NCBI GenBank assembly: GCA_000024525.1 | Contig: CP001769.1 | Location: 6,791,001-6,855,000 of the forward strand | From: Spirosoma linguale DSM 74 | Lineage (GTDB): Bacteria; Bacteroidota; Bacteroidia; Cytophagales; Spirosomataceae | DNA length: 64,000 nucleotides | Reading direction: 5' to 3' | Shown: positions 2,008 to 14,343 of the stretch, one piece after another | How positions within the stretch are numbered: the stretch's first letter is position 1 | How the letters are laid out: each line of letters begins with the position of its first letter | The notes under the pieces: model-generated | Told to the model about the DNA's origin: nothing | Database searches by the model: none | Seen by the model: the letters and a program-made list of their open reading frames with translations, nothing else | Made by a program: the position numbers and the translations under genes

Positions 2008-3549
2008 ATGGCCAACCAGCGTCTTCCTATGCACCTACTCCGTCAGATTCTGCTTCTCCAGCAGCAACATAAGTCTATCCGGGATATTGCCCGTTCGCTA
2101 GGCCTGGCTCGCAATACCGTCCGGGGCTACCTGCGCATGCTTCCCGATCCGGCAACGCTTTCCCTCCCGCAACTCTCCGACCAACAGTTGGATGAGCTGG
2201 TACAAAGTCGTCCGCCTGCGCCCTCACCCGACGCCCCCCTAACTATTCTTCAACAACGATTCGCTCAGATTGACCGCGAACTGACCCGACCCGGCGTTAC
2301 CCGGTATAGTCTTTGGCTGGATTACAAAGCCGAACATCCCAACGGCTATCAGTATACGCAGTTCTGCCACTATTATCAGCTTTGGAGCCAGCGGCAGCAG
2401 ACCAGCATGCACATTGAGCACAAAGCGGGCGACAAACTCTTCGTCGACTTTGCGGGCAAGCGGCTCTCGCTGGTCGACCAGACAACAGGGGAGGTTAGGC
2501 CGGTCGAGTTCTTCGTGGCCGTGCTGGGTTGCAGTCAGCTCACTTACGCCCAGGTAGTGGCTACTCAGCGCAAGGAGGACTTCATCACCGCCCTGCAAAA
2601 CGCCCTGCATTACTTCGGGGGCGTACCAGCGGCCATCGTGCCCGATAACCTCAAAGCGGCTGTGATTCGCTCGGATCGCTATGAACCCCAGATCAATGAG
2701 ACGCTGGCTGACTTTGCGCTCCATTATCAAACGACGATCCTGCCGGCCCGGAGCGGTAAGCCCCGCGACAAAGCTCTGGTCGAAGGAGCCGTCAACATCC
2801 TCTATCGACGCATCTACGCTCCCCTGCGCAATGAGGTCTTTCATCGACTTGACGATCTCAATGCGGCTATCCGCCCCTTACTCGACGCCCACAACCAAAT
2901 GCGCTTTCAGAACCGGGGCCATAGTCGGCAGTCGCAGTTCGAGGAGCGGGAGCGAATGCACTTGATGGGGTTGCCCAACACGGCTTATCTCATCAAACAC
3001 TATGCGGGGAGCCGGGTTCAGAAAAACGGCCATGTACTGCTGTCAGAAGACAAGCATTATTACAGCGTACCCTATCGCTACATCGGCCAGTGGGTACGGC
3101 TGATCTACACGGCGTCAAGCGTTGAAGTCTACTGCCAGCACCAGCGTATTGCGACTCACCAGCGATTACAGGGACAGTACCATTACTCGACACTCAAAGA
3201 GCATTTGCCCCCAGCCCATCAGTGGATCAGTGACTGGAGCCCGGAGACGTTCGTCCGTCGGGCCGACCGCATTGGCCCCCAAACCCGGCAGGCCGTCGAA
3301 GCCATCCTAACGAGCCGGGCGCATCCCGAACAGGCTTATAAGTCGTGCCAGGGTGTACTAAGTCTGGAAAAGAAAGTGGGTAGAGAACGTCTGGAGCGGG
3401 CCTGCCAACGGGCGTTGTGCTACCAGAGCGTGAGCTACAAAGTCATCCGATCCATCATCGAACGCGGGCTGGATACGCTCTCCGATGCCAGTCCTGTCAG
3501 CTCAGTACCCAGCCATGAAAACATCCGGGGCGCATCAGCCTACCAGTAA
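2008..3549 (+). CDS. istA: IS21-family transposase IstA
   Basis: This 513-aa DDE transposase cuts and joins the ends of the IS21 element. Residues about 17-42 form the N-terminal helix-turn-helix (KSIRDIARSLGLARNTVRGY). The DDE core is visible as D147 in LFVDFAG, D213 in VPDNLKAAV and E259 in DKALVEGAVN, followed by a C-terminal beta-barrel-like region. Length and motif spacing are normal for IstA. The stop is 48 bp before istB, and the two form an operon inside the element. Transcription is probably from a promoter within the left-end repeats at 1869-2000. No inactivating change is visible. Confidence 0.93.
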   Translation: MANQRLPMHLLRQILLLQQQHKSIRDIARSLGLARNTVRGYLRMLPDPATLSLPQLSDQQLDELVQSRPPAPSPDAPLTILQQRFAQIDRELTRPGVTRYSLWLDYKAEHPNGYQYTQFCHYYQLWSQRQQTSMHIEHKAGDKLFVDFAGKRLSLVDQTTGEVRPVEFFVAVLGCSQLTYAQVVATQRKEDFITALQNALHYFGGVPAAIVPDNLKAAVIRSDRYEPQINETLADFALHYQTTILPARSGKPRDKALVEGAVNILYRRIYAPLRNEVFHRLDDLNAAIRPLLDAHNQMRFQNRGHSRQSQFEERERMHLMGLPNTAYLIKHYAGSRVQKNGHVLLSEDKHYYSVPYRYIGQWVRLIYTASSVEVYCQHQRIATHQRLQGQYHYSTLKEHLPPAHQWISDWSPETFVRRADRIGPQTRQAVEAILTSRAHPEQAYKSCQGVLSLEKKVGRERLERACQRALCYQSVSYKVIRSIIERGLDTLSDASPVSSVPSHENIRGASAYQ

Positions 3550-3597
3550 AGCCGAGCCAATCAACACACGTACCAACTACAAAAGGGAATAAAAAGT

Positions 3598-4341
3598 ATG
3601 AATAACCAAGCGACACTTGACCGACTACGGGACCTTAAACTGGTGGGCATGTATCAGGCCTTCGAGACCCTGCTTCGCCTACCCCTTCACCAGCAACCGC
3701 CTGCCGACGAACTGCTGGCCCAGCTTACTGAAGCTGAACATGAGTACCGTCAACACCGACGCACCCAGATGGCCATCCGGGCGGCCCGCTTTCGCTATCA
3801 GGCCTCGCTGGAAGAGTTGCACTACGGCCCTGGCCGCAACCTGGATAAGACGCTGGTGCTTCGTTTGGCCGACTGCCGCTTCATCGATCGAGCCGAGAAT
3901 ATCTTCCTGACGGGATCAACTGGCTGCGGCAAAAGTTACGTGGCTTCGGCCCTGGGCTATCAGGCCTGTCAGCTGGGGTATCGGGTGGGTTATCACAATC
4001 TGATCCGGCTCATACAGCGACTGCAACTGGCTAAAGCCGACGGCTCCTACCAGCGGGAGATGAGTCGTCTGGAGCGGCAACACCTGCTCATTCTGGATGA
4101 CTGGGGCTTACAACCCCTTGATCAGAATGGCCGATTGGCCCTGTTACAGATCATGGAGGACCGGCATGGCAAGGCCGCTACGATCATCACCTCGCAACTG
4201 CCGGTGAGTAAATGGCACGAATACATCGACGATCCTACCTTGGCCGATGCCATCCTGGACCGGCTAACTCACAAGGCTCATCGGATGGAGTTGAAGGGTG
4301 AATCGATGCGACGCAAGCAAAGTCTTGCGGCTGAGAAATAA
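3598..4341 (+). CDS. istB: IS21-family ATP-binding helper protein IstB
   Basis: This 247-aa AAA+ ATPase is related to DnaC and assists IstA in target selection and transposition. Walker A is GSTGCGKS at residues 106-113 and Walker B is HLLILDDWG at about 162-170. The N-terminal segment (LKLVGMYQAFETLL) is the usual IstB_N region. Length is normal for the family. It follows istA by 48 bp and ends about 90 bp before the right end of the element. Confidence 0.93.
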   Translation: MNNQATLDRLRDLKLVGMYQAFETLLRLPLHQQPPADELLAQLTEAEHEYRQHRRTQMAIRAARFRYQASLEELHYGPGRNLDKTLVLRLADCRFIDRAENIFLTGSTGCGKSYVASALGYQACQLGYRVGYHNLIRLIQRLQLAKADGSYQREMSRLERQHLLILDDWGLQPLDQNGRLALLQIMEDRHGKAATIITSQLPVSKWHEYIDDPTLADAILDRLTHKAHRMELKGESMRRKQSLAAEK

Positions 4342-4471
4342 AGTGTACTAACTTTGAGCGGTTCCTACCCACAGGCGGGGTGGGTCAGTTTGCTCCGAAA
4401 CGCCTGGGTCACTTTGTCCGGAATACATACCTTGCACACAACTGCGCTTGCAAGCCCGATGAACGATAACC

Positions 4472-4648
4472 ACCCAACGACTACACGGGTGTTGATGGTG
4501 ACTGAAAAACTAACCTGAACACAAGCCACTTGAACCTTTACACACCCGTTATGATGTGCTGTATGTTTTTAACGAACTGATAATCAATAGGCAAAAACAT
4601 ACAGTTTGTCGGGGGTTTGTTCGCCTGCGAACTCGGTGGTGGTTGGGC
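4472..4648. repeat. attC-like site A (long class, 177 bp)
   Basis: It begins ACCCAAC (4472) and ends GTTGGGC (4648), 66 bp after the stop of the 4715-5269 gene. An inner pair CACGGGTG/CACACCCG forms the L-type stem. The 3' half has two additional hairpins: a 12-bp stem CTGTATGTTTTT/AAAAACATACAG (4559-4604) and GTTCGC-CT-GCGAAC (4619-4632). The 99 bases at 4553-4651 are identical to 12314-12412 in site F. Confidence 0.65.
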
Positions 4649-4714
4649 TGCAAACCCGGCCTGCGGGGCGTGCTGCCTGTCACCGGAAGCGACCCCACGC
4701 GGAGCGAAAATATA

Positions 4715-5269
4715 CTACTCGTCAATATCCTCGAACACGAGCGTGTTCCCTTTCTTATTGACTTTTATTTTTCTAAACTTCGGTGCATATCCATTACCTT
4801 GTGGTTCAAATAATTCCCTTATGAAGAACGGCTTAGTTGCATAGTTTTGGATAGTTTTTCTGCCTATGTATCGATTAGGTACCTGAAATAAACTATCATC
4901 TATCCAAGTTTCGCTTTTCTTGATTCTGAAATCAGATGCACTTGTAATCGAATGAATAATCTTATGCTTATCCTTTTCTGATATTTCCAGCGTAAAGGTG
5001 TGATAGTAGTCTCCGATAGCTGACATTGATTCGTTTTTTAATAGTTCAAAATTATCCGTCAGTTCAATATTCTGCTCTAACAATAACTTTTCAGCATCAC
5101 CCTTGGAGAAAAATTGCTCTTCGAACGCTATAAATAAGATTAGTAGGGCGAAAAGTATTCCGCTACTAAATAGTAAAACCTTGCCTATTCTCGGATAGCC
5201 TAGTCGTTTAAGTATCCAGTAGAGTACGTACCCAATACCTACCAACAACAATAAGGCCAATGCAAACAT
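4715..5269 (-). CDS. membrane protein of unknown function (cassette gene 1)
   Basis: This 184-aa protein has two N-terminal membrane segments (about residues 2-18 and 28-48) and a mostly soluble C-terminal part of about 130 residues with no motif I recognise. The start is the first Met, just before the first membrane segment. The tail is charged (FEDIDE at the end). It stands alone with its own 3' repeat (site A), and its leader contains the recurrent CCGGGGCGATTCTCGTGTC box at 5324-5342. Base composition is AT-rich compared with genes outside the array, which agrees with horizontal acquisition. No function can be assigned. Confidence 0.6.
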   Translation of the reverse strand: MFALALLLLVGIGYVLYWILKRLGYPRIGKVLLFSSGILFALLILFIAFEEQFFSKGDAEKLLLEQNIELTDNFELLKNESMSAIGDYYHTFTLEISEKDKHKIIHSITSASDFRIKKSETWIDDSLFQVPNRYIGRKTIQNYATKPFFIRELFEPQGNGYAPKFRKIKVNKKGNTLVFEDIDE

Positions 5270-5434
5270 ACTTTTTTATCTACGCGTACGCACAATCACA
5301 TTCTAAACATTCTGGCTTATTAACCGGGGCGATTCTCGTGTCGGCCGAAGTAGCCTAACGAATTAAAAGACCTACCTGTGTGGGCTTTTGGCCTGCCGCC
5401 AGTGACCCGCCTTTAACGCCATTCTGGCCAGTTC

Positions 5435-5522
5435 ACCCAACGCCCGCAAGGGTTGATGGAGTAGCACGCAACTTCGCTAAACAACCGGTGGCCCGACCTT
5501 TATACCCTCGCCTTTGTTGGGC
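5435..5522. repeat. attC-like site B (short class, 88 bp)
   Basis: ACCCAAC at 5435-5441 pairs with GTTGGGC at 5516-5522. Next comes an unpaired spacer on each side (about 6-7 nt), then an inner stem AGGGT/ACCCT, then a variable loop. This is the R box, central spacer, L box layout of attC. It lies 44 bp after the stop of the 5567-6067 gene. Confidence 0.65.
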
Positions 5523-5566
5523 TGCCAACTTTCCTTTGGGACGTGCCCCCTGTCGCACGAGTTTCT

Positions 5567-6067
5567 TTAATTTTTATTGGTTTTCCAGAATGTTCCTGGT
5601 AAAAACCCATAATACACCTTAAACTCATAAATGTCAGTATCAACCGATGGATTAGCCTTTTTGACTGCATCTATGAAGCTGGCAAAACTATCGTCTAAGG
5701 ACGGAGGTAAAACTCGAACCAAGCTCAACTGGTCTGATAAGTAGATTACTCTCCAATACGGATAGTTAAACTGGTTTTTTAAGGATGTCAATTTGATAGT
5801 CTGAATAGAAGAAAGTGGAATTTTCTTGTGACTGTTTTTAGGGTAGAAGAATTGGGTATCAAAATTTATTGGGTCGTACAGCAAGCCAAACTTATAATAC
5901 AATACTATGAGCGCAAAAGGTATAAAATGTATTAAGTTCTTGACGCTCCATATGTTCACGGCAAAGTAGATTTCGACACCTGCATACACTATCGTAAGTA
6001 AGGCTAAAAAGCCGAACAAACGTCGAAAATGTGTTGGGGAGCTATTTGTCATTTTATCCTGCTTCAC
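5567..6067 (-). CDS. small membrane protein of unknown function (cassette gene 2)
   Basis: This 166-aa protein has two predicted membrane segments (about residues 15-35 and 43-60), then a soluble domain of about 100 residues. The soluble part (IPLSSIQTIKLTSLK, YPYWRVIYL) has the look of a bacterial PH-like domain, which is inference only. Two Met codons are possible starts, M1 at 6067 and M6 at 6052. The reading frame is continuous and ends with a basic FWKTNKN tail. It sits alone between site B and the leader box at 6091-6131. Confidence 0.55.
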   Translation of the reverse strand: MKQDKMTNSSPTHFRRLFGFLALLTIVYAGVEIYFAVNIWSVKNLIHFIPFALIVLYYKFGLLYDPINFDTQFFYPKNSHKKIPLSSIQTIKLTSLKNQFNYPYWRVIYLSDQLSLVRVLPPSLDDSFASFIDAVKKANPSVDTDIYEFKVYYGFLPGTFWKTNKN

Positions 6068-6259
6068 AACTGCACCTTTTAACTGACCTCACCGGGGCGG
6101 CTCTCGTATCGACTGAAACTACCTAACGAGCAGGTCCAAACTTGCCAAACGGGGAAGTTTCTTGTGTCACAGCAGACCCCCATGAACAATAGCTTGACTT
6201 ACTTGCTATTGCCACTGTCTCCGGTAAGCCGCTTATGACTTCCATCATGTTGTTCCGCC

Positions 6260-6347
6260 ACCCAACGACCCAGGGGGCTGATGGCCCCACGTGCTCGCCG
6301 AAATGGACAACCCGCTCGCCTGCCTTTACACCCCCTGCCGGTTGGGC
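6260..6347. repeat. attC-like site C (short class, 88 bp)
   Basis: ACCCAAC (6260-6266) pairs with GTTGGGC (6341-6347). Unpaired GACC faces CCG. The inner CAGGGGG pairs with CCCCCTG. The stem halves are identical to those of site D (38 and 29 bp blocks), while the loop between them differs. It lies 73 bp after the stop of the 6421-7776 gene. Confidence 0.7.
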
Positions 6348-6420
6348 CGAAAGCCTTCCTTCGAAGGCCTGCATCCTGTCGACGGGAGGATACCCCACGC
6401 AGAGCGGCTTATATAAATTT

Positions 6421-7776
6421 TCAAAGTGCCATTGCGGTCGTTAGAGTATGAATAATTTTTTGGATTTCGTCTATATAAACTCCACTAAATACGCTTGCAG
6501 ATAGATAATTTTGGAAAGGGTCAATGACCGAACTCAGCTTATCTTTACGCTCTTCTTTGGGAATTAAGCTAATAGCCTTATCATAAACTTGGTAAGCTTC
6601 TCCATATTCGCCTGATAAAAAAAGCGTATCAGCTAAATCAAATAGGCGCCAATAATCATTGGAATCTTCTTGAACTGCAAAACGACAAAGCAAAACTTGT
6701 TTCTTAAATTGCTCTTGAGCTTGTGTTAATAATGTTTTATCCCATTTAGATAGTAATATATTTAAGCGAGCAATATTCAAACCCGAATAGAGATCGTATC
6801 TATTGATTTTGTGGGCTTCAACATAACTATCTCTAGCTTCTTCTAAATTTTTTTGGTTAAAAGAATTAGGAGCTTCAATCATGCCCAATTTTCTTAACGC
6901 TCCTCCCAAATTACTCCAAGCTTCTGCATCATTAGGAGATAACCTTACTGCTTCTTTTAAATAATAAATGGCATCATCTAACTTCTTTTGCTTACTGTAA
7001 GTCACACCTAATTCACGATTAATAATAGAATCAGTAGGTCTTAGTTTATGAGCATCACGTAGAGTTTTTATTGCTTTATCATATTGGCTAGCATCTCGAT
7101 ATGTTTTTCCAAGTTCTAAAAAAGCTTCAGCAGAAGCTGGATTTGCTTCAATAGCTTCTATTAGTTTTGTTAGCTTTTCATTAATATTATCCGTAGCCTT
7201 AGCAGCATTGATCAAATCTTCACCTCGCGCCTTTTTAAGTCTATTAATTTCATCATTTAACGCTTTAATCTCTAACCTAGAAATGGTAATAGTATCGTTA
7301 TTCAGTCGCACAATACTGTCACAGATATTATTTTTAAGTCCATTTTCAATTGCGGTAGCTATTTTATCCGTAATTTCAATCAAATTTTCCGGTGAATAAA
7401 TAAAAGCCCGGTTAGCAAATACGTTAAATTTTAGGTCGTCAACACTCTGAGCTATCATAATAGTAACTCCGTCACACAACGCCCATCTTACACCTAATTC
7501 GAGATACACGTTTGGATTAGCACCGGTTAAATCAGCTATGTACACATCTGCAGTTTGAGCTTCTCTAAACATAGATTGATGAATAGGTGCGGAATCAAGC
7601 TTTTCTTTTTCAATTATTAATTCTATATCTTGTATATTCAATCTATTTTTTAATCTATCTATAACTGGAGTTAGTAAATTCTTTCTTACTGATTCTGGAT
7701 TAGAATACTTAGCTGTATTACCCATACTCGTACCGGGCATTGCAACAAAAACTTTTAGTGATTTGAAGTCTTTCAT
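6421..7776 (-). CDS. nucleoside 2-deoxyribosyltransferase-like domain fused to TPR repeats (cassette gene 3)
   Basis: This 451-aa protein has an N-terminal domain (about residues 7-165) with the pattern FVAMPGTS, ADVYIADLTGANPNVYLELG and a following TIMIAQS strand. This is the Rossmann-like fold of nucleoside 2-deoxyribosyltransferases and related TIR/SLOG-like sensors. D77 and E93 sit where the catalytic acidic residues of that family lie. Residues about 165-200 look like a helical linker. Residues about 205-400 contain TPR repeats (AEAFLELGKTYRDASQYDKA, DAEAWSNLGGALRKLG). Proteins of this build occur as NAD- or nucleotide-processing effectors in bacterial conflict systems. An anti-phage role here is inference. 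It is a single-gene cassette, strongly AT-rich, followed by site C. Confidence 0.7.
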   Translation of the reverse strand: MKDFKSLKVFVAMPGTSMGNTAKYSNPESVRKNLLTPVIDRLKNRLNIQDIELIIEKEKLDSAPIHQSMFREAQTADVYIADLTGANPNVYLELGVRWALCDGVTIMIAQSVDDLKFNVFANRAFIYSPENLIEITDKIATAIENGLKNNICDSIVRLNNDTITISRLEIKALNDEINRLKKARGEDLINAAKATDNINEKLTKLIEAIEANPASAEAFLELGKTYRDASQYDKAIKTLRDAHKLRPTDSIINRELGVTYSKQKKLDDAIYYLKEAVRLSPNDAEAWSNLGGALRKLGMIEAPNSFNQKNLEEARDSYVEAHKINRYDLYSGLNIARLNILLSKWDKTLLTQAQEQFKKQVLLCRFAVQEDSNDYWRLFDLADTLFLSGEYGEAYQVYDKAISLIPKEERKDKLSSVIDPFQNYLSASVFSGVYIDEIQKIIHTLTTAMAL

Positions 7777-8073
7777 TATGCTTCATCTATTTTAAAATTA
7801 CATTGCTCAACTTACCGGTTTACCGAGCTTTCAACACAAAGTTAGTACTTGGAACCGACATAAATAATTTTTTAAAGCTCAATTTCCGGCGTGTTTTTCC
7901 TGGCCTATCAAGCCGTGCTGCCTGTCAGCTAAAAGCTGGAAAATTCACTGTTAGAATTATCTGATCGGGGCGTTTCTCGCGTCAACCGGAAGCCGATCAA
8001 CGAGCCTAAACCGTCCTGCCACGTGCTGCCTGTCGACCGGAAGCGGCAAATACGCTTTACGCTTTGTTCCGCC
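7777..8073. other. non-coding leader of cassette gene 3
   Basis: No convincing gene. It holds an AT-rich segment next to the start codon (7780-7880) where a promoter could lie. It also has a GTGCTGCCTGTCAGC copy at about 7916, the recurrent leader box (CGGGGCGTTTCTCGCGTC) at about 7966-7983, and a second GTGCTGCCTGTCGACCGG copy near 8021-8038 just before site D. The two GTGCTGCCTGTC copies suggest remains of an additional gene-less unit. Confidence 0.45.
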
Positions 8074-8161
8074 ACCCAACGACCCAGGGGGCTGATGGCC
8101 CCGCACACAAGCTGAAACAACAAACGTACCTACCTGCCTTTACACCCCCTGCCGGTTGGGC
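8074..8161. repeat. attC-like site D (short class, 88 bp)
   Basis: ACCCAAC (8074-8080) and GTTGGGC (8155-8161) form the outer stem, and CAGGGGG/CCCCCTG the inner stem, with a short unpaired spacer between. The stems match site C exactly and the loop does not. It lies 67 bp after the stop of the 8229-9251 gene. Confidence 0.7.
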
Positions 8162-8228
8162 TGCACAACGCACCCTCTGCGGCCCGCTGCCTGTCGCCCG
8201 GTAGCTACCTTACGCTGGGCGTTAAGTA

Positions 8229-9251
8229 TCAGTTTTCAGAAGATGCATTATTCTCTGCGGCTAACTTAACATTTACCATAACTTCTTGATCGTTAGGGAG
8301 TTCAAGCACGATCTCCCGCGTCTCTCCGTTTTTTACGCTCAATAACGGTGAGTCAGAAGCATATGGAACTCTACCCGAAGGAACGACTTTTGACGAGTCA
8401 GTCAGATGTACCTCTTGGTCATCAAAGAAGATATGAGCTCCAAAAGCCTTAAGCACTTTATCTTTTGACAAGCCACCTAAGAAATAGGCCTCGTCAACGT
8501 AAACTCCCCAATTTCTCAAAGTTTTTATGACTCGCATATGTGATGGTGCATTCCTTGCGGTAACGATTGCAAGTCTTAATGGTGATAATTCTATTGTAGT
8601 AGGCAGATGCTCCTGAATTTTAGACAGTTTGATCAACAAATTTGCAAAAGGCCCTTCTCCCAACGGCTCGTCTTCATGTTCACTCTCATACTTGTGGAAT
8701 GCAGCCATTCCCTCCGTTTTATATCGGTGTTCCGACTCGTCAGAGAAAAGTACTGCGTCTGCATCAAAGGCAATTCTAACTGAGTTGTCTGTTGGGTTAA
8801 AGTCTGTTGGTGGCTCGTAGATGTACGCAGCAGCAGATTGTTTAGAATCAATTACTGCTTGAACGTCTTTTAAATCTTTGCTCAAGAACAAATCAATATC
8901 AAAAGCGTCAATGTAAGGAGACAGGGGCTTTCCTCCACTGAAAGCCATTCGCGTTATATCCAGTCCATAATCACGAACTGAATTCATAATACGAACACCA
9001 GTCTCAGGACTGTTCCTAGACATGATTACAACTTCAACAATGCGCTTTTTAGCGTCGTCATTGAGATGCAGTAATCTTTGCACAAGGTGGAAAGCCGTTC
9101 CTTTATCAAGCGGATCATTTTCATGTTCCTGCTGAAATTTCCTGTATCCAGAAATGCCTTGTTCGTCGAAGATTTTATTCTCTTTTTCGAGGTTGAAGAG
9201 TGAACGACTGGAAACACCAATAACCAATGTCTCTGAAAGGTCTAATGCCAT
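8229..9251 (-). CDS. cytosolic 5'-nucleotidase-like protein, NT5C1 (PF06189) type (cassette gene 4)
   Basis: This 340-aa protein resembles the NT5C1/5'-nucleotidase family that dephosphorylates nucleoside monophosphates. It has two similar halves. The first (about 5-130) has VIGVSSRSLFNLEKE, then VVIMSRNSPETG. The second (about 155-310) has VRIAFDADAVLFSDESE, AIVTARNAPSHMR and HIFFDDQEVHL, which are HAD-like motifs with the nucleophile pair D-A-D. Families of this kind normally show the same internal repeat. It is a stand-alone cassette between sites D and E. Nucleotide depletion is a known anti-phage strategy, so a defence role is conceivable but unproven. The start is the first Met. Confidence 0.75.
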   Translation of the reverse strand: MALDLSETLVIGVSSRSLFNLEKENKIFDEQGISGYRKFQQEHENDPLDKGTAFHLVQRLLHLNDDAKKRIVEVVIMSRNSPETGVRIMNSVRDYGLDITRMAFSGGKPLSPYIDAFDIDLFLSKDLKDVQAVIDSKQSAAAYIYEPPTDFNPTDNSVRIAFDADAVLFSDESEHRYKTEGMAAFHKYESEHEDEPLGEGPFANLLIKLSKIQEHLPTTIELSPLRLAIVTARNAPSHMRVIKTLRNWGVYVDEAYFLGGLSKDKVLKAFGAHIFFDDQEVHLTDSSKVVPSGRVPYASDSPLLSVKNGETREIVLELPNDQEVMVNVKLAAENNASSEN

Positions 9252-9535
9252 ATTTCAAAAAAGTGAAGCCTATTACTGTTAATGCGGCCCAGCAATCGAG
9301 ATTATTGTGCCCAACGAGGTCGTTTCTCGTGTTAAACGGAACCTGAAAATGAAAGCAAGAACCTACTTAATTGGGTCGTTCGAATTGTCACACGGAGCCC
9401 ACCCCCAAGCATTTGTTGAATGACCACCCAACACCCACAGGTGTTGATGGTGAGGGAGTAACTTGACTAAACTGACGTACTTTCGACCTTTACACACCTG
9501 TTTAGATGTACGCATGCTTTCTAACCAACTCGTAA

Positions 9536-10891
9536 TCAAGCAGTCTGAAAGTCCACCGTCCAGCCCAAATCTTGAATCGAGATACCAAACTTATGCAGAT
9601 TTTTCTTGATTTTGCGGATCTGCATCACCTTTACTTGTTCCTGATCCCGTTCCAGCTTTTCGGGTTGGTAAGCTTCCCCTCTTTTCAACATCGTATAGAC
9701 CAGCACGGCTAACTTTCTTGCTGTGGCCGTGATGGCTTTTTTGCGGCTGGATTTGAAGGCTACCCGCCGAAAGAAGTTCACCAACGGATTGGAGTCCTTC
9801 ATGTTACCAATCGAATTAGCCACCTGACGGAACGTATTGGGCAGATTCGATTTGTTCTTCAAAGTCTTGCGCGACAGTAGTTTACCCCCAGATGCTTTAT
9901 TATTGGGAGTAAAACCCAACCACTTGGCAAACGCTTTTGCTGAGTTAAAACGGTGGATACTTTCGCCTACTTCACTCATCAATGTTAGGATGGCCGTGCG
10001 ACCAAAGCCTGGTATCTCATGCAAATTGACCCCTAACATCTGCCGAGCATACTGTTCCACCGCTACTTTAGGTGCATTCCTGTGCTTACGAGGCTTCTTT
10101 TTAGTCGCTTCGGCTCTAGGCAAATGTTGAGTATGCTCTGTGAAGAGTCGGTCTAACTCGGCATCCAACCGGGTCATTTCAGCCTGAACGGCCTGATAAA
10201 GCCGGTAGGACGACTGCACTTGTAGTCGTATACTAGGTGTCCAATTTCCCGTTAGCAATTGGGTAAGTTCGGCAGGTGTCTTCTTACAATGTTTATCAAC
10301 CAGGGCCGCCAGAATTGCCCCGTCCTCTTCGCCCTCACAAATTGCCTTGATGATCGCCAAGCCCGACACGGAAGTGGAATCGGTCAAGGTGGCATCTAAG
10401 CGCACATTGATCAGCCGAAGCGTCTTTTGGATGCGCCGGATGTAGTCAGCCCCATCTTCAATGAGGCTTTGGCGCATCCGCACCAGTGGCCGAATGGTGG
10501 TAGCAAACTCATCGGTGATGAAAATAGGGGGTAGTAAACCTAACTGATGCAGGGTTCGGATATGGATGGCATCTGACACGTCTGACTTGAAGCGTCGGTA
10601 GTTTTTGGTGTTGGCTCCAGCTGTAACTAACACGTCAAAGCCTTCCTGTTGGAGGACGCTCACCAGTGGTTTTTCGTAGCCTCCGGTGGCTTCCATAGCA
10701 ACGTGCTGAACGTCATTCTCTTTGAGAAAAAGCGCGATCTCAAAAAGGGCTTTAGTGGAAACGCCAAACTCTTTGACGTCGGTTTTGGGATTGTCTCCCA
10801 CGGCTACGACGTGAAACTTGGAGCCAATGTCAATGCCTGCCACCTGCTGATGAATGACAGGCATTTGCTGATAGTTAAGCTGTTCTTTCAT
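9536..10891 (-). CDS. IS110-family transposase (DEDD recombinase)
   Basis: This 451-aa protein has the N-terminal RuvC-like DEDD domain with D21 in AGIDIGSKFHVVAVG, E68 in VAMEATGGYEKP and the Asp cluster in FKSDVSDAIHIRTL. The C-terminal Transposase_20 domain is visible as LHEIPGFGRTAILTLMSEVG and GFTPNNKASGGK, holding the serine used in strand exchange. It is longer than many family members. The N-terminal start (MKEQLNYQQMP) leaves about 240 bp to the element end. The TGA stop falls exactly at the junction with target DNA. It appears intact. Confidence 0.9.
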   Translation of the reverse strand: MKEQLNYQQMPVIHQQVAGIDIGSKFHVVAVGDNPKTDVKEFGVSTKALFEIALFLKENDVQHVAMEATGGYEKPLVSVLQQEGFDVLVTAGANTKNYRRFKSDVSDAIHIRTLHQLGLLPPIFITDEFATTIRPLVRMRQSLIEDGADYIRRIQKTLRLINVRLDATLTDSTSVSGLAIIKAICEGEEDGAILAALVDKHCKKTPAELTQLLTGNWTPSIRLQVQSSYRLYQAVQAEMTRLDAELDRLFTEHTQHLPRAEATKKKPRKHRNAPKVAVEQYARQMLGVNLHEIPGFGRTAILTLMSEVGESIHRFNSAKAFAKWLGFTPNNKASGGKLLSRKTLKNKSNLPNTFRQVANSIGNMKDSNPLVNFFRRVAFKSSRKKAITATARKLAVLVYTMLKRGEAYQPEKLERDQEQVKVMQIRKIKKNLHKFGISIQDLGWTVDFQTA

Positions 10892-11133
10892 ATTTCGAAG
10901 GGAATAAAACGTGAAAAATGGCTATCAGCGGGCTATTATTGAGAACAGAAAGTCGGATGTACGGGGTAGTCAGGGTCACTGACTCCACCAGTGGGGTTTT
11001 CAAGGAACCCAATAGGCAGGCCCATTGGGTTACGAATAGCTAAATCGGGTGGTTGGGCGGGTTGAACAGCACCAGAAATGAGGTACGATTTTCCCATTGA
11101 AGGGCTACTGATAGCGCATGAAAGTTAGTCATT
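9540..11133 (-). mobile_element. IS110-family insertion sequence
   Basis: The element is about 1.6 kb, inserted inside attC-like site E. The ends are inferred by comparing E with A and F, because IS110 elements have no clear inverted repeats or target duplications. The transposase stop codon overlaps the TAATCAA motif at the left junction. The non-coding stretch of about 240 bp upstream of the transposase is the expected location of the bridge RNA. A hairpin arm (CGCATGAAAGTTAG) at about 11115-11128 just inside or beside the right junction duplicates part of the target stem, so the exact right end is uncertain. Confidence 0.75.
10895..11115 (-). ncRNA. candidate IS110 bridge RNA region
   Basis: IS110-group elements encode a structured RNA between the left element end and the transposase start, which pairs with target and donor DNA. 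This 220-bp non-coding stretch is in the right place. On the minus strand it can fold, for example AACCCAAT at about 11027-11034 pairing with ATTGGGTT at about 11009-11016, plus a smaller GTCAGTGACCCTGAC hairpin near 10970. I cannot predict the guide loops without a covariance search. Confidence 0.45.
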
Positions 11134-11196
11134 GCTGCCTAATTTTCATGCGTTTGCCGGGGGTTTGTTCGCGCGCGAACACGGTGGTGGTTGGGC

Positions 11197-11384
11197 TGAG
11201 AGCATGAACTTGCGGCTTGCTGCCTGTCGCAGGTGAGCTTGACTTGTTTACTTTTTAATAACTGTTAAAAATATGAATATGAAACCTAAAATCGACCAAA
11301 GATCAACGTCTGATTACAATCGACATTTGTTGAAGATTTTTTGTGTCAATATGGCCCCTTGGCTAATTTACATCACCTATCGAA
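11197..11384. other. non-coding tail between cassette gene 5 and site E
   Basis: AT-rich stretch of 188 bp. It carries a GCTGCCTGTCGCAGGTGAGC copy at about 11219-11238, the 3'-side box seen after the other array genes. No gene is visible. Confidence 0.4.
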
Positions 11385-12041
11385 TCATTTGTCTGATTCT
11401 ATCATCATAACTAGCCCAATCATAGATGCTGAAGTAATTGCTGAACCTGCCCATGCCTCTAACGTTGATGTAAGGGTCAACATAAATAGTGCATTTATGG
11501 GAAAGATGCATAACGCTAAAATAATGAAGGGGGTCGGGGTTTCAAGGGTTCTGTAAAAACCAAAATATAGCCATATCATCAATACATTATGCACAATTGG
11601 AAGGATAGATTCTTTATGTCGAGCATACAGATAACCAGATTGAAATTCATGAATATAGTTAAAGGACCATAATAGGCAAAATACATAAGGGATGATATGT
11701 AAGCCGATTAAAACAATCCATTTACTTTTAGATGAGTAAGTGAGTAGTATAGATGTCATGCAGATGTAAAAAACTCCTGCAAACATTATATTTCCATCAC
11801 TCAGATATTTTTGATAAAAATCAGTTGACAAATTAAACCTAGGAAAAAGAACCCTTAAGGCTATCTCGAAGGCAATAATACCCGCAAACTGAGCTAGTAA
11901 GAATTTTGCGGAAAAGGGAAGCTGCCAATTTGAATTATGCTTGCCTTCTTTATTTGGTACTATGAGATAGTGTTCAAATAATATAGCAAAGACACTACAG
12001 AAAATTCCAACAATGAGAGGGTAAAGAATTGATTCAAGCAT
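11385..12041 (-). CDS. polytopic membrane protein of unknown function (cassette gene 5)
   Basis: This 218-aa protein has about six hydrophobic segments across the whole length (for example ILYPLIVGIFCSVFAILFEH at the N-terminus and MIWLYFGFYRTLE further on) and short loops, so it is an integral inner-membrane protein. I recognise no motif or family. It is AT-rich, stands alone and is followed by site E, which carries the IS110 insertion. The start is the first Met (MLESILYP). Confidence 0.55.
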   Translation of the reverse strand: MLESILYPLIVGIFCSVFAILFEHYLIVPNKEGKHNSNWQLPFSAKFLLAQFAGIIAFEIALRVLFPRFNLSTDFYQKYLSDGNIMFAGVFYICMTSILLTYSSKSKWIVLIGLHIIPYVFCLLWSFNYIHEFQSGYLYARHKESILPIVHNVLMIWLYFGFYRTLETPTPFIILALCIFPINALFMLTLTSTLEAWAGSAITSASMIGLVMMIESDK

Positions 12042-12236
12042 TACTGATTTTTAATGAACTATATTACACCTATTAAAAAAAGTACCCTTTGTCGCAGGTG
12101 ACCTGCCTAATATGCTTTACTTGCCCAACGTGGCGTTCACTTTGTCACACGTAGCCCGACCATGAGCAACGGCTAACCTAACTAATTGCCCCACTGTCGC
12201 AGGTGACCCGCCTTTAACTCCCGGCCTGTTGGCTTC
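12042..12236. other. non-coding leader of cassette gene 5 with repeated boxes
   Basis: No gene. It carries two copies of the GTCGCAGGTGACCYGCC box (about 12091-12107 and 12196-12212) and a diverged copy of the leader box near 12124-12161. The A/T-rich 12050-12080 segment next to the start codon may hold the promoter. Confidence 0.45.
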
Positions 12237-12409
12237 ACCCAATGACCATGAGTGTTGATGGTGAGCCCATAACTCCACTGAATATACGTACCTGAACCTT
12301 TACACACTCATCAGATGTGCTGTATGTTTTTAACGAACTGATAATCAATAGGCAAAAACATACAGTTTGTCGGGGGTTTGTTCGCCTGCGAACTCGGTGG
12401 TGGTTGGGC
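12237..12409. repeat. attC-like site F (long class, 173 bp)
   Basis: It begins ACCCAAT (last base differs from the other sites) and ends GTTGGGC at 12403-12409. The hairpin CTGTATGTTTTT/AAAAACATACAG lies at 12320-12365. The stretch 12314-12412 is identical over 99 bases to 4553-4651 in site A, although the loop parts 5' of it differ. It lies 52 bp after the stop of the 12462-13004 gene. Confidence 0.65.
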
Positions 12410-12461
12410 TGCCCACTCGCCTTCGGGACGTGCTGCCTGTCACCGAAAAGCTACCCTAACA

Positions 12462-13004
12462 CTATTTTTTGAATACTACACTATTCAATATTTTCTGACT
12501 GTCGGTCGTCTTTCCTTTTACCGAGTGCGTAAGTTGAAACGACGCATAGAAAGGTGGTAACTGAAACATATACTGCTCTTGGATGAGCGGTCCTTTACCC
12601 TCCCTTGAGATTGTACTTTCCCAATGATAAGCCTGTTTCCCCTTTAAATCCACTATATCAAATTTACTCACACTAATCCCTCTTGCTTTCTGTCGTTCAT
12701 ACAGCTCTTTGCAATAAGGACTAAAATCCATAGGCCCGTATTTAGCGGCCATTTGGTTTGAATTAACTGCAACAATTATAAAGTTCTGAATAGGAGCTTC
12801 CGTCGTTGAATCCTTAAAGAATTTTTCATCTATGGGGATCAGTGTACTGACTAACCATCTTGAATCTTCTGTATTGTTTTTTTCAGTTATCGTCCAGCCG
12901 TCAGGTAAAACCACCTTCAAATATTCATTCTCGTAGGCGCGCTCCTTGAGCGAACACGACAGAAAAATCAAAAGGCTAAGCAACGGTAAGTATTTTAAAT
13001 TCAT
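12462..13004 (-). CDS. putative lipoprotein of unknown function (cassette gene 6)
   Basis: Starting at the Met at 13004 gives a 180-aa protein that begins MNLKYLPLLSLLIFLSCSLK, a typical type II signal peptide with the lipobox ending in Cys17. The open frame extends 25 codons further upstream to 13079, but those residues run through the recurrent leader box and are unlikely to be translated. The mature part (LPDGWTITEKNN, FIIVAVNSNQMAAKYGPMDF) looks like a small secreted alpha/beta domain resembling PsbP or DUF1795-type folds; this is weak inference. It is followed by site F. Confidence 0.65.
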   Translation of the reverse strand: MNLKYLPLLSLLIFLSCSLKERAYENEYLKVVLPDGWTITEKNNTEDSRWLVSTLIPIDEKFFKDSTTEAPIQNFIIVAVNSNQMAAKYGPMDFSPYCKELYERQKARGISVSKFDIVDLKGKQAYHWESTISREGKGPLIQEQYMFQLPPFYASFQLTHSVKGKTTDSQKILNSVVFKK

Positions 13005-13187
13005 ATTTCGACAATTATACCTCTCGGGGCGTTCCCTGTGTCGATCGAAACTCGACCCACCAGCCAAAAGCTTACTCATTAGACATACAAGCTGTCGCAG
13101 GTAACCCGCCTAACGAGCCAAAGCTAACTTTTCAAGCCGTACAACCTGTCGCAGGTAATTTGCCTAGTGAGAGCATTTTGGACCCGC

Positions 13188-13273
13188 ACCCAACATATCA
13201 TTGTACGCAACACCACTAAATGTTAATCTTCTGCTAAGCAGTAACTTAGCATTTAGTGTAAGTTGCGCTGTAC
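13188..13273. repeat. incomplete attC-like site G with long imperfect palindrome
   Basis: ACCCAAC at 13188-13194 is preceded by two copies of the CTGTCGCAGGTAA box (13092 and 13146), as before other sites. A 25-28 bp imperfect inverted repeat follows (13202-13226 with 13246-13273, core CACTAAATGTTAA/TTAGCATTTAGTG) with a smaller CTGC-TAA-GCAG hairpin in its loop. No closing GTTGGGC follows. This is probably the broken promoter-side edge of the array. Confidence 0.45.
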
Positions 13274-13490
13274 GGCCTATTTACTATCTTCATCGGCGTT
13301 GCACAAGGATACTCGTTTGGAATGAGCTACACAACAGGAGTATACGAAAGCTACCGATTTTTTGCCCCAATTGATTATACGGTGGTCATTTGTTGAAGAT
13401 GCTGTATTTCAACAAACGGATTGAGCCAGAAGCAGACAGTCGGCGTGCTCAACAAACCTTTGCCGACGTAGCGGCTTAGATGAAATAACC
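13274..13490. other. gene-poor segment with possible coding debris
   Basis: It lies between the last attC-like site and the S24 repressor gene. A short plus-strand frame at 13399-13479 reads MLYFNKRIEPEADSRRAQQT and ends at TAG. Just upstream another frame reads GMSYTTGVYESYRFF before a stop. Both look like scraps of genes rather than complete ones, and I cannot name them. Confidence 0.25.
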
Positions 13491-13629: not shown

Positions 13630-14343
13630 TTACTCCACCGGCGCTTCTACAATCGCTACGATCTTCCAAAGGCCCCGAATGTCCTGCAAGGGCACCGTTA
13701 CGTTGCCGCCGTTGGGGTTGTCGGAGTGGAGGGTCAGGTATTTTTTGGTTAGCAGCTCGTTGTCGCGGATACGCTTCACCACAAAATAATCCCGGTACAT
13801 GACCGCATAAACACCCCCCGACTGGTACTCCCAGTTGTTTTCGCTGACGGGAATCGCCAGCACTTTAGCACCATGCGCCAGCTGCGGACTCATGCTGTTC
13901 CCCGAAATCTCCAGCACAACCGAGTTCTTATGCCCCTTTACAATAGGCTTCCGCACCCGAAAGGAGTCTACATCGGTTGCATGAATGCCCTCGGCGAAAC
14001 TCTCCACGAAGGTGGCGTAAAACTTTACCGGTATGAACGGAACCTCAATGGTGTCGTCATCGGCAGAAAGAAGCCGGGCGTTTGCTTGTGGTGAATTTAA
14101 GATTGGCAGTATACCCCGAATCAGGTAGTCGGCACTGATTTGCGGATAGCAGGCCAGCAGACTCATAATTGTGTCATATGAGGGCTTTGCCCTACCATTC
14201 AAGATATTGTAAAACTTCGATGGGTTTTCACCTAACTCCTTCGCTATCTGATAGATAGTTATGCCAAGGGCATCAAAAACTTGCTTCAGTCTGTCCTGGA
14301 TTGTCACGGGGGATGCTATTTTTTTTAAACAATTCTCAGCCAT
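13630..14343 (-). CDS. XRE-type repressor with S24/LexA-like peptidase domain
   Basis: This 237-aa protein has an N-terminal helix-turn-helix of the XRE/CI type (about residues 14-70, IYQIAKELGENPSKFYNILN) and a C-terminal S24 domain (about 115-235). The catalytic pair seems present: S150 in SGNSMSP and K190 in YFVVKRIRD, with spacing as in LexA and UmuD. I do not see a clear Ala-Gly cleavage site, so RecA-stimulated self-cleavage is uncertain. It is transcribed away from umuC with an inverted repeat in the shared promoter region, and probably represses umuC and itself in response to DNA damage. It takes the position that umuD has in classical umuDC operons. Confidence 0.8.
   Translation of the reverse strand: MAENCLKKIASPVTIQDRLKQVFDALGITIYQIAKELGENPSKFYNILNGRAKPSYDTIMSLLACYPQISADYLIRGILPILNSPQANARLLSADDDTIEVPFIPVKFYATFVESFAEGIHATDVDSFRVRKPIVKGHKNSVVLEISGNSMSPQLAHGAKVLAIPVSENNWEYQSGGVYAVMYRDYFVVKRIRDNELLTKKYLTLHSDNPNGGNVTVPLQDIRGLWKIVAIVEAPVE

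Follow-up and report, generated by a model that had tools for sequence, protein, structure and literature searches.

An integron-like cassette array in Spirosoma linguale and a candidate Xer-type recombinase that lacks the I2 insertion

What moves a row of cassette-like genes that has no integrase beside it? The question is raised by a 64,000-nucleotide stretch of the Spirosoma linguale DSM 74 chromosome (the window; C1:6791001-6855000 of an 8.49-Mb genome in 9 contigs), in which six minus-strand genes are each followed by a structured repeat. An initial annotation had taken these for an integron-like cassette array whose integrase lies elsewhere, was lost, or is replaced by a different recombinase, and no tyrosine-recombinase match is indeed found within the window. 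We consider it probable that the window carries an integron-like chromosomal cassette array, in which a Xer-type recombinase without the I2 insertion, encoded elsewhere, would join attC-like to attI-like sites within GTTGGGTG. Genome comparison shows covarying sites, attI-like array heads, boundaries at GTTGGGTG, cassettes in differing contexts and species, and a recombinase gene that keeps a single position next to an array. The candidate recombinase, a protein of 390 residues, is encoded 3.1 Mb from the window in a locus that we call L020 (L020:6022-7194, which is C1:3716022-3717194).

The array runs on the minus strand from 13209 down to 4472, as an attI-like site followed by six genes with one attC-like hairpin after each. 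The coordinates of the open reading frames and repeats confirm that each gene has a single repeat, located between 4472 and 12409 and 44-188 nt from the stop codon. On the plus strand of the window five repeats start with ACCCAAC and the last one with ACCCAAT, and all six end in GTTGGGC. In gene orientation the order is GCCCAAC, L'', a variable part, L' and GTTGGGT (ATTGGGT in the last site), and the predicted fit to the attC consensus RYYYAAC...GTTRRRY is borne out in both orientations. The other features of attC sites, namely R and L stems, an unpaired spacer and a variable end loop, are also present. Among 211 pattern-found sites, written as in the plus strand of the window, ACCCAAC is seen in 189 and GTTGGGC in 184.

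To follow these sites we built a covariance model, R1, from seven of them (three in the window, four outside); it is a model of the Spirosoma sites themselves and was used in place of the standard attC covariance model. We confirmed that the structured repeats are more than chance. Over 148 distinct aligned sites, in an alignment fitted to the model and hence biased towards the structure, 94.9% of pair cells are paired and 215 cells have changed on both sides; neither value is reached in any of 500 shuffles, and slid versions pair in at most 54%. Two-sided changes are seen somewhere in this alignment for five of the eight L-stem pairs. In the seven-site alignment, which was not fitted to the model although its structure was drawn from it by hand, 92.0% of pair cells are paired and 7 cells have changed on both sides; again no shuffle among 500 reaches either value, and pairing in the slid controls is at most 52%. 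In the S. linguale genome R1 detects 27 sites with E≤1, of which 24 reach E≤1e-3; they form six clusters, with a few more at isolated positions. Three further sites (C1:6788647, 6789418 and 6790545), which the initial annotation did not include, extend the array ~2.4 kb to the left of the window. Repeats scattered beside unrelated genes had been named as a sign against the array; those outside the window lie mainly in further arrays, and two (C2:47398 and C1:7275263) do stand alone.

The sites are widespread among close relatives. At E≤0.01 they occur in 34 of 59 genomes, comprising 34 of the 36 congeners (S. linguale included) and none of the 23 others, of which one belonged to the same family and 22 to other families. 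In a family-wide sample of 150 genomes from 36 genera, sites at E≤0.001 turned up in 34 genomes and 7 genera. Within the loci that were fetched, R1 identifies 159 sites in 24 loci at E≤0.01, and 326 sites in 64 loci (985 kb) at E≤0.05. In 487 kb surrounding true IntI genes the same model has no match at E≤1, and Rfam at gathering thresholds has no match in the window.

At the head of the window array, and likewise beyond the initial annotation, lies the attI-like core TGCGTACAATGATATGTTGGGTG (13187-13209, minus strand), with GTTGGGTG at 13187-13194. The identical 23 letters are present at L020:5637-5659, between the recombinase gene and that gene's own array. The core is preceded by a hairpin (13214-13258, minus strand, inverted repeat I5) with arms at 13214-13235 and 13237-13258. 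Hairpins with other arm letters precede the attI cores of relatives, the complementarity being kept while the letters vary between loci, as in CGGAACTA/TAGTTCCG, GCTTAATATTAA/TTAATATTAAGC and CACTAAATG/CATTTAGTG. In 36 of 49 candidates, a few of them doubtful, this hairpin folds better by more than two standard deviations than shuffles that preserve base composition only. By eye the attI core resembles what we take to be a Xer dif-type site.

A conserved TTGCGTACAATANTATGTTGGGTG-like site is found ~350-400 nt past the recombinase stop codon, ahead of the first cassette, in 18 of 20 Spirosoma recombinase loci. A further 15 recombinase loci, all but one from other genera, include eight with both the attI-like site and pattern-found sites; these eight are all from other genera, four in number. 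Arrays free of a recombinase gene are also headed by attI-like sites, in 21 of 38 further array loci (L304-L341) and doubtfully in one more (L329), many of these stretches stopping short of the array head. The S. linguale genome has six attI-headed arrays, including that of the recombinase and that of the window. Searched with at most 3 mismatches, the attI pattern is present in 19 of 23 congeners, at 1-5 per genome, and in none of 12 other genomes, and never when read backwards.

The clearest view of cassette movement comes from two genomes of one genus of the family, G351 and G385. Their sequences are 98.6% identical over 900 nt up to the GTTGGGTG of attI, beyond which identity is 15-60% per ungapped 20-nt block. 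A cassette common to both is identical at 608 of 611 nt from one GTTGGGTG to the next, its neighbours are unrelated, and the right flank is 88-90% identical. Judged from this alignment, the event is a site-specific cassette insertion. Homologous recombination fails to explain the attI junction, because attI and attC by eye share little beyond GTTGGGTG. Similarly, a cassette of G020 (L122:6006-6749) recurs with 92.8% identity in G031, where it lies directly behind attI, while in G020 it lies behind another attC-like site. In G011 one cassette is present in two arrays (96.6%), and the identity runs through the site up to GTTGGGTG. The attC-like site thus travels with the preceding gene, which places the cut at R'; the genome comparison recovers the units that define mobile cassettes, each a gene with its own site, bounded at the R' box.

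Alignments that cross attI were obtained for 12 locus pairs. Nine stop within 5 nt of GTTGGGTG, four of these being ~75-nt alignments of attI alone that would stop there anyway, and three continue for 40-155 nt. Among 128 cassettes shorter than 2.5 kb the longest reading frame runs with the array in 104 and against it in 23, with none in the remaining one. Gene order, which had been expected to be fixed across relatives if the array reading were wrong, is not fixed. Together these comparisons of genomes establish cassette mobility with boundaries at GTTGGGTG, and the proposed integron-like array is supported by its attI-like head, its units of gene and site, and the movement of cassettes between contexts. 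One hairpin per gene end would also be seen if the repeats were terminator-like or repetitive extragenic palindrome-like structures and the arrays were reshuffled by homologous recombination between them, and near-identical long sites are present in two arrays of this genome. We regard this as highly improbable: breaks at attI coincide with GTTGGGTG though attI and attC otherwise look so dissimilar, pattern-found sites lie on both strands in none of 64 loci, attI-like sites head the arrays, and sites are absent from the other families sampled.

Which enzyme would carry out the exchange? Orthologues of the 390-residue protein adjoin a cassette array in one geometry, with R1 matches on the strand opposite the recombinase gene and on its downstream side in all 20 recombinase loci. 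Its closest named relatives are from Spirosoma, Nibrella and Fibrella. Across 150 genomes of the family, recombinase and sites are both present in 26, the recombinase only in four (G373, G380, G395, G436), sites only in eight (G008, G009, G029, G031, G377, G408, G444, G457) and neither in 112; the recombinase cut of 300 bits was chosen after the table had been seen, and no p-value is attached since the genomes are related. From the shared neighbourhood and distribution we infer that this recombinase performs the exchange.

Alternatively, the cassette sites could be real and be moved by another recombinase of the cell, XerC/XerD-like or some other tyrosine recombinase, the neighbouring gene being incidental. 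The genome does encode other tyrosine recombinases, among them two Xer-like proteins (to which the labels XerC and XerD are applied informally), and arrays are kept in genomes free of the candidate. We think this improbable, as the recombinase adjoins both array and attI in those 18 of 20 Spirosoma loci and again at loci from four further genera, and as sites are rare where it is missing (8 of 120 genomes lacking a match of at least 300 bits).

Several observations concern the state and wider relationships of the recombinase. Of 16 orthologues, 15 retain the presumed catalytic tyrosine, and G023 has a histidine in its place. Some copies look dead, with in-frame stops in G003 (residue 36), G033 (residue 34), G008 and G032, and the frames are split or shifted in G013, G016 and G025. 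Arrays persist beside inactive-looking copies in L121 (G023), L113 (G003), L120 (G033) and other congeners. Relatives in viral contigs are at best 48% identical over a part of the protein, and the others at most 41%. A crude scan for repeated hairpins at 71 loci of more distant recombinase relatives yielded 14 candidates, all weak, where a single shuffled set drawn from only part of the 71 loci yielded 2; the scan also missed three of six positive controls.

The initial annotation had offered an integrase elsewhere and a different recombinase as separate options; both now look true together, and the third, loss, is not among them. The best match in the genome to the integron integrase family TIGR02249 is below the cut-off of 265 bits; the candidate itself scores 180 bits and appears to be a different recombinase. 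Its best NCBIfam match is the XerA-type family NF040815 (190 bits, under the cut-off of 220), TIGR02249 being second. At E≤1e-50, TIGR02249 matches in none of 36 congeneric genomes, in a search whose own controls were silent, and it does match in 84 of 296 genomes of the phylum. The I2 insertion specific to IntI is present in 14 of 14 IntI rows and in none of 16 Spirosoma rows, and the spacing from KGxKxR to RH is 61-66 residues in the 16 Spirosoma recombinases versus 102 in the 14 IntI. The top-ranked structural match is XerA (5hxy), with Vibrio cholerae IntI4 (2a3v) close behind and with a better root-mean-square deviation; such matches span mainly residues 113-391. The protein is thus like Xer/XerA in its best family and structural matches and in lacking the IntI insertion, and differs from these in its N-terminal extension of ~110 residues, its tie to cassette arrays and its score below the NF040815 cut-off. 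Five orthologues were scanned against Pfam at E≤10, and within their N-terminal ~110 residues the sole match, to PF14196 at residues 60-80 of a single orthologue (E 0.16), did not rise above chance. A motif in the protein, GRRW...RRCW..PNTR, presumably resembles HARP domains.

The sites differ from those of IntI as well. In nine IntI-type sites from three loci, read away from intI, the extra bases lie on the L'' arm, as PMC2727003 states for IntI-type attC sites. By the same rule the Spirosoma sites have a single-base bulge on L', plus two extra bases on L''. Over the 211 sites the register with the L' bulge is the better one in 200, ties in 6 and is the worse one in 4, with one site unparsed. 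The first bulge is therefore on L' in Spirosoma sites and on L'' in IntI-type attC. Since the first bulge is what chiefly sets the strand in the Vibrio cholerae repeat (VCR) site (PMC2727003), the Spirosoma enzyme seems to follow other rules in reading its sites. A pattern search located IntI-type attC sites near only 5 of 32 IntI loci, and these were too few and too varied to yield a trustworthy canonical covariance model.

These results bear on whether the system is an ordinary integron, whose IntI has diverged and lost I2, with the other differences being later drift. The sites fit the attC consensus, TIGR02249 is the second-best family match at 180 bits, and the approximately unbiased test does not reject a tree uniting the Spirosoma recombinases with IntI (p 0.25). 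However, TIGR02249 scores under its cut-off and NF040815 scores higher, the IntI (14 rows) and Spirosoma (16 rows) sequences form separate, well-supported clades, the insertion divides the two groups without exception, and the first bulge is on the other arm. On balance we think an ordinary integron rather unlikely. We do not file the array as an IntI integron because the I2 domain and the side of the first extrahelical base were both examined and neither is of the IntI kind, a feature that the initial annotation had not reported.

Judged by genome comparison, the system nevertheless works like an integron. It shares with sedentary chromosomal integrons a tandem series of cassettes that hold one gene and one foldable RYYYAAC...GTTRRRY site apiece, an attI insertion point near a tyrosine recombinase gene, cargo of mostly unknown function, and a putative crossover in the GTT box that follows the gene (R'). 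Unlike IntI integrons, the recombinase lacks the I2 insertion and falls outside the IntI clade, attI bears a hairpin of changing letters, there are several attI-headed arrays per genome, the sites are flanked on both sides by GACAGG-type motifs at fixed distance, and the system is so far from one family only. The window array resembles a cluster of attC sites lacking integron-integrases (CALIN) in having more than two attC-like sites and no recombinase beside them, and differs from one in keeping an attI-like site, in having a matching recombinase encoded in the genome, and in sites that are not of the IntI type. Tentatively, and at somewhat below an even chance, we propose that this is a second type of integron: a Xer-type enzyme lacking the I2 helix would have come independently to recombine folded attC-like sites, which it would read with a mirrored bulge geometry, and it would use a hairpin-bearing attI and serve several attI-headed arrays of the genome in trans.

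Under the proposal of an integron-like array served from elsewhere, each cassette would be one gene plus one attC-like site. The recombinase would join the attC-like site of a free cassette to the attI-like site by exchange within the shared GTTGGGTG, so that new cassettes would enter next to attI. The attC-like site probably acts as a folded single strand, as in integrons, given that pairing is kept while letters change. One recombinase may serve the other attI-headed arrays in trans, that of the window included, and its ~110-residue N-terminal extension may bind the site or the flanking CGACAGG motifs.

Several points weigh against this proposal. All of the evidence is comparative, and the genomes are one per species, which places gain and loss within a species outside our view. 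The pattern search did not find an attI-like site in two of the 20 recombinase loci (L114 and L117), and in 7 of the 15 further recombinase loci the patterns used revealed neither attI nor sites. Eight of 34 site-bearing genomes of the family have no recombinase match of at least 300 bits, one of which (G008) has a broken copy. Congeners with no recombinase match at E≤1e-40 can have many sites (27 in G031, 15 in one contig of G017, 15 in G029). Conversely, the four recombinase-only genomes have no site at E≤0.001, two of them being only 66% and 87% complete. Finally, IntI is thought to handle folded sites via the I2 helix (PMC7790495), which the Spirosoma enzyme is without.

The cargo of the window array is largely unfamiliar. 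Numbered from attI, the genes of cassettes 1 (12462-13079, 205 residues), 2 (11385-12041, 218 residues), 5 (5567-6067, 166 residues) and 6 (4715-5269, 184 residues), all open reading frames on the minus strand as are the other two, have no match in family searches. The cassette 3 gene (8229-9251, 340 residues) belongs to the 5'-nucleotidase family PF06189 and matches the PADLOC candidate PDC-S08 with 434 bits. The cassette 4 gene (6421-7776, 451 residues) encodes TPR repeats with a weak TIR-type match at residues 32-128 (31.5 bits), and is the sole match in the genome at E≤1e-10. These two genes resemble candidate anti-phage defence families. Of 87 cassette proteins altogether, 34 were listed for seven loci and 20 of these were scanned; 7 of the 20 match Pfam families at E≤1e-4, comprising one NACHT/STAND, three PDDEXK_2, one OGG-like and two DUFs.

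The sites themselves show two further features. Those of cassettes 3 (8074-8161), 4 (6260-6347) and 5 (5435-5522) match R1 with 88.1, 81.7 and 76.3 bits, respectively. The other three window sites (the first, fifth and sixth along the plus strand) are long forms, at 4472-4648 (cassette 6; 49.7 bits for the matched part 4472-4559), 9426-11196 (cassette 2) and 12237-12409 (cassette 1). In these, as at L020:3850-4022, an insert of ~91 bp with two hairpins separates the L and R boxes; the motif of this insert is seen again in further arrays of the genome as well as in G016 and G027. Secondly, a conserved motif of the type GACAGG...GCACGTCCC flanks most sites on both sides, for example at 8173-8202 and 12419-12448. 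The form [CT]GACA[AG]G, seen in 1.7% of random windows, precedes R'' by up to 90 nt in 185 of 207 sites, with 182 of these spaced at 32-35 nt; it follows R' by up to 120 nt in 150 of the 207, and 92 of those have a spacing of 36-42 nt. RNAalifold predicts no structure for these flanking motifs. They could be accessory binding sites for the N-terminal domain of the recombinase, or RNA signals.

Other mobile elements have entered the array. The cassette 2 site is split by an element of the insertion sequence (IS) family IS110, a feature new to this analysis, with an RNA-guided transposase gene at 9536-10891 (minus strand; NF033542, 198 bits). A second copy (L020:894-2249), which sits behind the site L019:19774-19859 in the other array, encodes an identical protein (452 of 452 codons translated), and L020:185-478 repeats part of the element, resembling a further partial copy. 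IS110/IS1111 elements target attC sites. The copy inside the fifth window site is alike in this respect, and the element may target the long-form insert; here these elements look like passengers and not the mover of cassettes. An IS21-type istA/istB pair (2008-4341) occupies the left part of the array, and a regulator with HTH and S24-peptidase domains (13630-14343, minus strand) lies beyond the attI-like site.

We found no report of such a system in a literature search that left out preprints and most subscription journals. PMC7790495 describes the I2 helix as the innovation that brought integrases to the recombination of single strands. If a cassette system works without this helix, the capture of cassettes through folded sites can be reached in another way, and such a system would offer a natural comparison for the essential parts of integron biology. 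For the family itself, the results point to a large pool of cassettes, with those 326 sites in the loci fetched so far, which screening for IntI genes would leave unconnected to any integrase.

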